Source: Bacteroidales bacterium
GTDB taxonomy: Bacteria > Bacteroidota > Bacteroidia > Bacteroidales > UBA7960
Assembly (NCBI GenBank): GCA_003560165.1
Contig: PWJC01000181.1
Location: 1 to 49,855 of the forward strand
Length of the DNA stretch: 49,855 nt
Direction: 5' to 3'
Shown here piece by piece: positions 21,966-36,054 of the stretch (positions are counted from its first letter, which is position 1; the number at the start of each line of letters is the position of its first letter). The notes under the pieces are model-generated. The model ran no database searches, was not told the DNA's origin, and was given only the letters and a program-made list of their open reading frames with translations. A program made the translations under genes and the position numbers.

Positions 21966-24272
21966 ATGCGTATTTTCAAACTTCGATTGTGGCCACGTTT
22001 TTCCCTGTGGTTTTTAAACCTGGTCTTATTTCCGGCATTCCTGTGTTCCGGTCAGCTATACGGAGAACCTGCCGGCAGTTACTTCGATTCGAGGGGAGAG
22101 CTGTATTTTTCTTTTGCCCATCCCGGTAAGGAGCAGATTAATAAGCTGATGCTCATTGTCTCGGTCGACTGCATCCGCAATGACTCTGTGTTTGCCTATG
22201 CCAATCATCAGGAGTTTGCCAGTTTTCTGGATTTTAGCCTCGATTATCATGTGTTGTCCGCCCCTGGCCTTGTTGATTACGATCTGAATATGAAATCCTG
22301 GGACGAACTGCAGCAGAAAGAGGAACTCGGTTGGGACTTTTATCCGACCTACGAGGCCTATGTCCACATGATGGAAGGCTTTGAGAAGGATTTCCCCCAT
22401 CTGGTCAGCATTCACAGCATTGGAGAAACCCCCCTTGGCCGCGAATTGCTTTTTGCGAGGATATCCTCCAGACAGGATGGGGCGGCGGCGGTGCCAGCCT
22501 TTATGTATACGGCAACCATGCACGGAGATGAGACGGCCGGTTTTGTTCTTTCGCTGCGACTGATCCATCATCTACTCAATCAATATGGTGAAGATGAGCG
22601 CATTACCCGAATGCTTCAGAATACAGACATCTGGATATGTCCCAATGAAAACCCCGACGGTACCTACACCGACGACAACACGACCATTCAGGGGGCCACC
22701 AGGGGAAATTCCAACTTCATCGACCTGAACCGCAACTACCCCAATCCGGTCAGTGACCCCTCAGCGCCTATGCAGCCAGAGACCCTGGCCATGATCGGTT
22801 TTACCGATACCCTGAATTTTATAATGTCGGCCAACATGCATGGCGGCATTGAACTGGTGAATTTTCCTTTCGATGCCTGGCGTTCTTTGCAAAGGAAACA
22901 TGTCGATCACAACTGGTGGCAGATGGTCATGCAAGAATACGTGGATACAGTTCACGCTTACGCCCCCCCGGGGTATATGACCGGGATGGGCAACGGGGTG
23001 ACCCATGGCGGCGACTGGTATGTGATCTATGGCAGCAGGCAGGATTACATGAATTATTACCGGGGGTGCCGCGAATTCACCCTCGAACTGAGCAACGACA
23101 AGATCCCGCCACCCGAACAGCTGCCCGGCCTCTGGGAATACAATCACCGCTCCCTGATCAACTATATTTCGCAGGCAAGCTATGGCATTCGTGGCCTGGT
23201 ATACGACAACGGCAGCGGGCAGCCTTTGGATGCCGGATTATTGGTGAGCGGGCACGACGAATATTACTCAGCCATTCGGACCTCGCCTAAAACCGGATTT
23301 TTTTTCAGGCCTATTGAACAGGGAGCCCATACCCTCGAAGTGACGGCTGAGGGTTTTGACACCCTGCTTGTCGGGCAGCTAGAGGTAGCTGACCGCCACA
23401 ACAGATTTCTGAGCATCGGGCTTCCGGCAGCCGGGTCGGGCGATTTGACCACAGTGGAAATAGGGCGGGAGGGCGAGGGGGTGCTTACCCCTTATGAGGG
23501 CAGCCTTTTGCTCAATGAGGGAGCCAATCTTTTTTTGGAAGCCGCTGCCGCCGAAGGGTGGTTGTTCTCTCACTGGGAAGTGGACGCAGACAGTCTGCCC
23601 GATCCTTCGGTCATCGTTTCTTTTGATGAGGACGCCCGGGTTGTGGCATATTTCAAGCAAACGCCCCAGCCACAGATTGCGGTCTTGCCCACCGCTGTTG
23701 ATTTCGGGCAGGTAGAAACAGGGCAGGAGCAGGAAAGTGTGCTGGAGATCTTCAACACCGGCAGCATTTTGCTGAGCATCGATGCCCTTAGTTTCGACAA
23801 TCCTGCTTTTTTCATGCGGGAGGAACCGCCTTTTCTGATCGAACCAGGTACATCGCAGTATTTTTCACTGGTGTTTTTGCCCCCTGAAGAGGGGCGGCAT
23901 ACGGGAAATCTGAGCATTCTGAGCAATGCGGCCAATGAGCCTACACTGCGGGTGACCCTCGAAGGCGAAGGTCAGGATGCGGTGTTCGTGCGGCATCCCC
24001 CGGAGGACCATCAGGCCGTGATCGATGTGTACCCCAACCCCGCGGGAGCGGGCAGCCGGGCTTCCCTGCTGCTGGGATCGCCCATGGATGTCAGGCTCGA
24101 AGTGCTAAGCCTTTCGGGACAGGGAGTGACCGTTTTGTTTGAGGGTCTTCTTGACAGCGGAGAACATGCCTTTTCCCTCTGGGAGGCGATGCAGGGAAAA
24201 AGGGCAGGCATTTACTTCTTACGGCTTTTGGGCGCAGACAAGGTATTGTATAAACGTTTTGTTATCCTGTAA
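21966..24272 (+). CDS. Secreted M14 zinc carboxypeptidase with T9SS sorting domain
   Basis: 768 residues. Signal peptide (about 1-30), an unassigned N-terminal part, then the M14 peptidase domain (about 125-400) with zinc ligands His186 and Glu189 (HGDE) and His292 (MHGG), an NRN arginine at 256, and catalytic Glu374 (FTLEL). After it come a carboxypeptidase-regulatory-like beta sandwich (about 405-485), a divergent InlB-type repeat (about 495-565, FSHWEVD then VVAYF), an abnormal-spindle/HYDIN-like domain (about 570-670, VDFGQVETG) and a type A T9SS C-terminal sorting domain (about 685-768, starting VYPNPA and ending KRFVIL). It is predicted to be exported by T9SS, trimmed and attached to the surface or released. 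It probably trims peptides outside the cell. Confidence 0.93.
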   Translation: MRIFKLRLWPRFSLWFLNLVLFPAFLCSGQLYGEPAGSYFDSRGELYFSFAHPGKEQINKLMLIVSVDCIRNDSVFAYANHQEFASFLDFSLDYHVLSAPGLVDYDLNMKSWDELQQKEELGWDFYPTYEAYVHMMEGFEKDFPHLVSIHSIGETPLGRELLFARISSRQDGAAAVPAFMYTATMHGDETAGFVLSLRLIHHLLNQYGEDERITRMLQNTDIWICPNENPDGTYTDDNTTIQGATRGNSNFIDLNRNYPNPVSDPSAPMQPETLAMIGFTDTLNFIMSANMHGGIELVNFPFDAWRSLQRKHVDHNWWQMVMQEYVDTVHAYAPPGYMTGMGNGVTHGGDWYVIYGSRQDYMNYYRGCREFTLELSNDKIPPPEQLPGLWEYNHRSLINYISQASYGIRGLVYDNGSGQPLDAGLLVSGHDEYYSAIRTSPKTGFFFRPIEQGAHTLEVTAEGFDTLLVGQLEVADRHNRFLSIGLPAAGSGDLTTVEIGREGEGVLTPYEGSLLLNEGANLFLEAAAAEGWLFSHWEVDADSLPDPSVIVSFDEDARVVAYFKQTPQPQIAVLPTAVDFGQVETGQEQESVLEIFNTGSILLSIDALSFDNPAFFMREEPPFLIEPGTSQYFSLVFLPPEEGRHTGNLSILSNAANEPTLRVTLEGEGQDAVFVRHPPEDHQAVIDVYPNPAGAGSRASLLLGSPMDVRLEVLSLSGQGVTVLFEGLLDSGEHAFSLWEAMQGKRAGIYFLRLLGADKVLYKRFVIL

Positions 24273-33390: not shown

Positions 33391-33714
33391 ATGCCCGACT
33401 TTTTTGTACGCTTCTCAAGGGCTTTCCTGTTGGTGGCCCTGTTGCTGCTTGCTCCCCTGTACTGGAGTTGCTCTACCCAGAAAGACTCTTTTGTGAACAG
33501 GGCCTATCACACCGTGAATGCCAAATACAACGGGTTCTTCAATGCCCGGGAGAGTTACCGGGAAGGGGTTTTGCGTTTGTCCAGGATGCATGTCGACAAC
33601 TACGACCAGGTTTTGTCGGTGTTCAGGTATGGTTCAGAGCAGCAGGCTTCGTCTGTTGTCAGTTACATGGATGTTGCCTACGAAAAGGCAAGCCTGGTGA
33701 TCAGGCGGCATTAG
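33391..33714 (+). CDS. PorW/SprE-like T9SS lipoprotein, N-terminal part ending at an in-frame TAG
   Basis: 107 residues from ATG 33391 (GTG 33385 is an alternative). Lipoprotein signal peptide with WSCST, acylated Cys near residue 27. Then comes the opening typical of the T9SS lipoproteins PorW/SprE as I remember it: NRAYHTVNAKYNGFFNARESY, VDNYDQVLSVF and MDVAYEKASLVIRRH. The codon after RRH is TAG (33712-33714). The downstream frame continues without any shift into the rest of the same protein, so this is the front part of an interrupted gene. On its own it would be a small lipoprotein lacking the repeat domain. Confidence 0.8.
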   Translation: MPDFFVRFSRAFLLVALLLLAPLYWSCSTQKDSFVNRAYHTVNAKYNGFFNARESYREGVLRLSRMHVDNYDQVLSVFRYGSEQQASSVVSYMDVAYEKASLVIRRH

Positions 33715-36054
33715 ATGAACATTCGTGGCAGGGAACACAACAAATGGATAGATGAATCCTTTTTCCTGATCGCCCGTTCTCATTTTTTTAAAAGGGATTA
33801 TACCCTCGCCATCCTCACTTTCGAATACATCATCAGGCAATACGACACTCCCCGCAGTGCCGAATCAAAAGTATGGATCGCCAAGTGCCACCATGCACAA
33901 GGGCGGGTCGAACCGGCTTTGCGCATGCTGGAAATGGCCGAAAGTGATTACAAGGATGGGCTTATGACCACCGAAGGTGCGGCCCTGTTCAGAAAGACCC
34001 GGGCAGACCATTACATCAGGAAGGGAGACTACGGCGCTGCTGCCCCACACCTTGAGGCGGCGGTTCAGTATGTGAAAAACAGAGAGGAGGAGGCCCGGCT
34101 TACCTTTATCCTGGCCCAGCTCTACCTTCACTCCGGAAACTATGCCATGGCCCAGCAAACCTACGCCAGGGTGCTGGACATGCGGCCGGGATACGATATG
34201 GCTTTCCAGGCCCGCATCGGGATGGCCATGGCCTTCGACCCGGATGTCGGCGGCGGCAGCAACATTCGCAGGGAACTGATGTCGATGTTGTCGGACGACA
34301 GGAACAAGGCTTATCTCGATCAGATATATTATGCGCTGGCCCAGCTTGCCATGCGCCAGCAACAGGAGAAAGAAGCCATCGGGTTCTATCTTGAGTCGGT
34401 TCAGCATTCCGAAGGCAATGAACTGCAGAAAGGTCTTTCTTTCCTGCGCCTGGGCGAAATTTACTTTGAACACCCCGATTATCTGCGGGCCAGTCTTTAT
34501 TACGACAGCGCCACGACCTATCTGCCATCGGCCTATGATCATTACCACGAGATAAGCCAGCGCCACCGGGTGCTGTCGGGCCTGGCCCGGAATGCCCGTG
34601 TTATCGAGCACGAAGACTCCCTGCAACGACTGGCAGCCATGCCGCTGGCCCAGCAGGAAGCCCTGGCCCGTGAGATCATTGGTGCGATCAGGGAGCAGGA
34701 CAGACTGGCTGAGGAGGAGGCAAGGGAAATGCGGCGGGCCATGGCCGAAGCCGGACGTTCAGCCAGACAAACCAGGGGCATGGGGGGGCAGGAAGGAGGT
34801 TGGTATTTTTACAATGTCAATGCCGTCAATCAGGGCAAGGCTGAGTTTTTCAGCAGGTATGGCGACCGCCCGCTCGAAGACCTGTGGCGCATCAGCAACC
34901 GCCGGATGCTGGCCGTTGGGTTTGAAGACGGTGATGAAGCCTGGGACGATGAGGCCGGGCAAGCCCAGGAAGCCGGCGATATATACGATATCAATACCTA
35001 CCTGCGAAACATCCCGAATACCGAAGAACAATTCAAGGCCTCCAACCGGCGGTTGGTCGACGCCTATTACAACATGGCCATCATCTTCAAGGACCAGCTC
35101 GGGAATGCCGAAAATGCCCTGAGCTCCTTTGAAGCCCTGACGAGCAGATTCCCCGGCTCGGAAAGGGAGTTGTATGTCTACTATTATATGTATTTTCTCT
35201 ACCGCGAAACCGGCCAACCATCAAGGGCCGAGGCAGTCAAAAACGCCCTTGTTTCGGGCTATCCGGACAGTGATTTTGCCCGCATACTTGGCGATCCCGA
35301 TTATGCCGGCAACTTCAGGGAACGGCAGCAGCAGGCCAGCCGGATGTACGAAGAAAGTTACCATGCTTTTCTGTCGGGACGCTACGAGGTGATTGAACGG
35401 CATTTGCAGGCCCTTGACACCATGGAAGTGTCCAGAGAAGACAGGGCCAGGTTTGCCTATCTGCATGCGCTGTCTGTGGGAAGATCGAATGATGGTGAAC
35501 GCTTTGCCCGCCAATTGAAGGAAGTGGTTTCCATGTACGAGGGTACCCCTGTTTACGGTCCTGCCACCATCCTGCTGGCCTCGCTCGAAGCTCAGCCTGC
35601 CGTTGTGGCGGATGCCACCGATGCAGGCTCTTTTGAGGATGAGGATGCTGATGAAGGGTCCGGTACCACTAAGCTCACCGATTCACCTTTTGAATATGAT
35701 CCGTCAAAAGCCCACTTTTTTGTCTTGCTCGTAGGCGCGGACAATACAAATCCGAGGCAGTTGCGGGATGAAGTCACCGAATACAACCGTGAATCCCATC
35801 CCGAAGTCCAGCTTTCGGCCAGCAGCATCTTTTTTGAAGAGGGCCGGCAACTGATCACCATCACCAATTTTGACAACAAGGGAAATGGCATGGTTTATTA
35901 CCAGCAAATTACGGAGTCGGCCTTTTTCAACCGGGTATCAGATGGGGTCATTGCTTCTTTCATTATTTCGGTAGACAATTATCCTGCTTTTTACCAGGAT
36001 AAACTGCTGGAATCCTACCAGACGTTTTTCAGGCACTACTATTTGGAACCTTAA
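33715..36054 (+). CDS. porW: PorW/SprE-like TPR protein of the type IX secretion system, main part after the in-frame TAG
   Basis: 779 residues in the same frame as the fragment ending at 33714, beginning with an ATG directly after the TAG. The sequence starts IRGREHNKWIDESFFLIARSHFFKRD, which normally continues the lipoprotein N-terminus. It has tetratricopeptide-type repeats (about 10-290 and 430-610), a charged linker with EDEDADEGSG near 645, and a C-terminal PorW/SprE-like domain (about 665-779). PorW/SprE is an envelope lipoprotein needed for T9SS export and, in gliding species, motility. Without the upstream signal this part would remain cytoplasmic, so function requires readthrough of the TAG, or the TAG is a mutation or sequence error. 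The bactofilin gene follows after 86 bases with its own promoter. Confidence 0.8.
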   Translation: MNIRGREHNKWIDESFFLIARSHFFKRDYTLAILTFEYIIRQYDTPRSAESKVWIAKCHHAQGRVEPALRMLEMAESDYKDGLMTTEGAALFRKTRADHYIRKGDYGAAAPHLEAAVQYVKNREEEARLTFILAQLYLHSGNYAMAQQTYARVLDMRPGYDMAFQARIGMAMAFDPDVGGGSNIRRELMSMLSDDRNKAYLDQIYYALAQLAMRQQQEKEAIGFYLESVQHSEGNELQKGLSFLRLGEIYFEHPDYLRASLYYDSATTYLPSAYDHYHEISQRHRVLSGLARNARVIEHEDSLQRLAAMPLAQQEALAREIIGAIREQDRLAEEEAREMRRAMAEAGRSARQTRGMGGQEGGWYFYNVNAVNQGKAEFFSRYGDRPLEDLWRISNRRMLAVGFEDGDEAWDDEAGQAQEAGDIYDINTYLRNIPNTEEQFKASNRRLVDAYYNMAIIFKDQLGNAENALSSFEALTSRFPGSERELYVYYYMYFLYRETGQPSRAEAVKNALVSGYPDSDFARILGDPDYAGNFRERQQQASRMYEESYHAFLSGRYEVIERHLQALDTMEVSREDRARFAYLHALSVGRSNDGERFARQLKEVVSMYEGTPVYGPATILLASLEAQPAVVADATDAGSFEDEDADEGSGTTKLTDSPFEYDPSKAHFFVLLVGADNTNPRQLRDEVTEYNRESHPEVQLSASSIFFEEGRQLITITNFDNKGNGMVYYQQITESAFFNRVSDGVIASFIISVDNYPAFYQDKLLESYQTFFRHYYLEP

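Follow-up and report, generated by a model that had tools for sequence, protein, structure and literature searches.

An in-frame TAG in porW/sprE of a Bacteroidales draft genome: very probably a private nonsense substitution

In a 49,855-nucleotide stretch of a Bacteroidales draft genome (assembly GCA_003560165.1, contig PWJC01000181.1; hereafter "the window"), a porW/sprE gene is interrupted by one in-frame TAG, which we consider very probably a private nonsense substitution, i.e., either a consensus error or a recent null allele. A consensus error—through sequencing, assembly or strain mixture—is the most likely source and on balance the probable one, and a very recent private null allele is possible, if rather unlikely. 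A sequence-only reading of the window had left a list open (nonsense mutation, readthrough, suppressor or error); the presence of at least six other such stops in the same genome speaks for error or nonsense mutation; readthrough and suppression are unsupported. On the reading that we favor, an ordinary single-copy porW/sprE would carry a Ser codon turned into TAG in the assembled sequence (TCG, by C to A), this stop would be one of several isolated stops scattered over the draft genome, and the organism's majority genome presumably lacks it.

Translation of the porW/sprE frame runs from ATG at 33391 to TAA at 36052–36054 with exactly one internal stop and no frameshift between its 5' and 3' parts, and the lipoprotein-like N-terminus and the TPR region lie in one frame with only the TAG between them (Table 1). 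In profile searches, the read-through protein matches T9SS_PorW_SprE (NCBIfam NF052312, curated cut-off 250 bits), the family of the periplasmic lipoprotein PorW/SprE of the type IX secretion system (T9SS), over residues 23–721 and also matches TPR families, and its sole PDB sequence match is the Flavobacterium translocon SprE (8gl8 chain I). The solved SprE is matched over 15–718 and reads HSMNI at the stop site ("IQKHSMNI" pairs with "IRRH(stop)MNI" of the window), and the only departure from these known proteins considered here is the in-frame TAG at codon 108. The PorW/SprE identity and the otherwise undamaged frame claimed from sequence alone are thereby upheld, and a genome-wide search for a second porW found none.

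Table 1. Parts of the interrupted porW/sprE frame (window positions) and other single in-frame stops in the source draft genome (contig:position).
Feature	Position	Strand	Observation	Basis
porW/sprE 5' part	33391..33711	+	lipoprotein-like N-terminus and conserved opening, 107 codons to RRH	translation; aligned to relatives and SprE 8gl8_I
In-frame TAG	33712..33714	+	codon 108; Ser in relatives (one Ala)	sequence and alignment of relatives
porW/sprE 3' part	33715..36054	+	779 codons, TPR repeats, final TAA; first codon Met, common to most relatives	translation, profiles, alignment
Complete porW/sprE frame	33391..36054	+	887 codons before the final stop; sole copy in genome	NF052312, 614 bits on read-through translation
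susC/ragA	C174:3418	-	TAG; Glu in ten orthologs at 75–83% identity	profile spans stop
kamA-like	C108:8245		TAG; stop upstream of family match	same-genus homologs align across it
dsbD	C7:4752		TAG	profile spans stop
lon protease	C73:35907	+	TAG	TIGR00763 match spans stop
pyrF (orotidine-5'-phosphate decarboxylase)	C136:34895	-	TAA	profile spans stop
abgT transporter	C73:12980		TAA	profile spans stop

The stop is confined to the window's own copy of the site. Among 98 genomes searched (the source genome and 97 relatives, 46 of them in the same family), 94 gave a porW match; internal stops among these were the window's TAG and one TAG in a genome from a different family of the order (G055), and none was present in the same-family genomes with a porW match. 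The G055 stop, which lies near the C-terminus of its porW (contig C8), was rejected as an instance of the same site, as it sits at query position 758 in the poorly conserved C-terminal part. In the aligned loci, the TAG column holds Ser (TCN or AGY) throughout except for one Ala, as the sequence-only reading had proposed, and the close relatives align across the junction without a gap. TCG, from which TAG is one base away (C to A), is present at the site in some relatives, and the ancestral codon was probably TCG. After the stop position, most relatives have Met and a few have Ile. When 393 genomes of the order were searched, about 150 porW matches were listed, and one of these, in G416 (C4:69071-71311), is interrupted by a TGA; occasional isolated stops in porW are thus an expected background.

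Besides porW, six single in-frame stops were recovered from unrelated genes in a census of 1.22 Mb (about 45%) of the source draft genome (2.71 Mb, 184 contigs, 95% complete). This part of the genome was read as stretches and scanned for stops with coding-like sequence on both sides in the same frame; candidates were sorted by eye, and most were normal gene junctions. The residues replaced differ among genes (Ser in porW, Glu in susC, Tyr in abgT); the position is variable in distant homologs of lon and is Glu in one kamA-like homolog that is 28% identical. No internal stops occurred in close susC orthologs or in the dsbD and kamA-like genes of relatives. For pyrF, stop counts in relatives are uninformative (the joined query extended beyond the normal stop), and neither the kamA-like nor the DsbD parts had a match in the PDB. 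There is nothing particular to porW or to the T9SS in these stray stops.

As a control, the same scan of 445 kb of a sister genome (318 kb of long-ORF coding sequence) yielded no case judged real, where 2.6 were expected at the source-genome rate (P about 0.08); this small control is suggestive, not conclusive, of a stop background peculiar to the source genome. A homology-based comparison with one sister genome suffered from shadow ORFs and, once filtered, covered only ~110 kb. The source genome and the scanned sister, placed in one genus, are ~10 points apart in G+C (0.53 vs. 0.43) in sampled stretches.

A suppressor tRNA or incipient code change that reads UAG (and UAA) as an amino acid, such that full-length proteins are made and the stops tolerated, would account for single TAG or TAA codons—and zero TGA—in several genes, housekeeping ones included, and the gene responsible could sit in the unassembled part of the genome given that the tRNA inventory is incomplete. 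We nonetheless judge this highly improbable, and give equally little credence to its specific form, in which a UAG/UAA suppressor on the unassembled part would render stops tolerable in porW, lon, pyrF, susC, dsbD, the kamA-like gene and abgT while TAG and TAA still serve as terminators. No CTA or TTA anticodon is found among the detected tRNAs (an inventory that lacks, among others, Ile, Asp, and some Ser and Arg genes). A match to the tRNA-Sec profile proved to be a tRNA-Ser(TGA) gene at C86 and was discarded. Two genes for tRNA-Gly(CCC), scored identically, lie at contig starts (G000:C148:7-79 and G000:C178:43-115) and may be a single gene that an assembly break has duplicated. Release factor 1 (RF1) is present at 518.6 bits, above cut-off, and the terminators of the 610 long ORFs in the 1.22 Mb comprise 238 TGA, 232 TAA, and 140 TAG (23%). 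TAG likewise terminates six other gene-like ORFs in the window, so the earlier view that it is an ordinary stop there, and that genome-wide recoding is unlikely, is supported. The seven stray stops (5 TAG, 2 TAA, 0 TGA) can be set against the mix expected from one-step paths out of sense codons at the genome's codon usage (47% TAG, 37% TAA, 16% TGA): P is 0.19 for five or more TAG and 0.29 for zero TGA. The mix is unremarkable and fits random substitution given codon usage, and the differing replaced residues also count against one suppressor or a code change. Since six or more unrelated genes are interrupted in a similar way, error or private mutation is more likely than a new reading of the code.

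Explanations specific to porW fare no better. Regulated or programmed readthrough of the UAG, setting the amount of full-length PorW, draws on the intact frame on both sides of the TAG, yet the stop is missing from all aligned relatives, shuffled sequences fold at least as well as the 100 nt around and downstream of it (z +0.76), and similar stops occur in unrelated genes, which together make such regulation very unlikely. The adjoining TAG and ATG are what a true gene split would call for, i.e., termination and restart at TAGATG that yield two proteins, one a short lipoprotein and the other a TPR protein of 779 residues; however, no relative shows such a split, and as Met follows the stop position in most relatives, the downstream ATG is inherited rather than a newly evolved start. 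We accordingly assign the split a very low probability.

Returning to a private nonsense substitution, error and null allele each meet some resistance. Treated as uniform substitution errors, the seven stops imply ~2.4e-4 per coding base, a high rate for a consensus with good coverage, and this counts against the consensus-error reading. Fixed null alleles, in turn, are unlikely because the affected genes include housekeeping ones such as pyrF and lon. The small size of the control census and the sorting of census candidates by eye weaken the favored reading as a whole. Oxidative damage, which would show as an excess of G:C to T:A changes, was also considered and set aside: the sites whose replaced residue is known would allow such an excess, but at P about 0.06 and with substitution paths that are partly inferred. 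A profile search places mutY above its cut-off, and so no mutator is indicated.

The consequences of a real stop can be framed against the rest of the secretion system. SprA matches TIGR04189 at 2697 bits in an open frame of 2410 residues, and 29 TIGR04183 sorting-domain matches in the genome contain no stops; one of them lies inside the window (24027–24266). Judged from these genes, the remainder of the T9SS shows no decay and looks to be in use. In Flavobacterium johnsoniae SprE, N-terminal regions contact SprA (PMC10994853). Were the stop real, translation would end after 107 residues and a product restarted at the next ATG would presumably have no signal peptide; the short fragment and the signal-less 779-residue product should not work, and T9SS function should be lost. 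Should the stops prove real and fixed, natural nonsense suppression would have a candidate among the Bacteroidota in this genome.

More broadly, counting comparable stops turns a striking single gene into a background case and explains away an apparent recoding, and gene-loss calls for the source genome (e.g., pyrF, lon, T9SS function) are not trustworthy without reads. Our literature search found stop recoding in crAss-like phages of Bacteroidota, where TAG is read as Gln. The present case shares with these phages an in-frame TAG and a Bacteroidota setting, but here the genes are chromosomal, TAG is a normal stop, no suppressor tRNA is among those detected, and the replaced residues differ from gene to gene. 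Isolated in-frame stops in otherwise conserved prokaryotic genes have as their listed sources annotation artefacts, sequencing errors, pseudogenes, and functional genes with premature stops (PMC7918605). The porW stop resembles those cases in being single, without a frameshift, and set between undamaged flanks; it differs in that here a single draft genome has such stops in several unrelated genes, and they are absent from its relatives.
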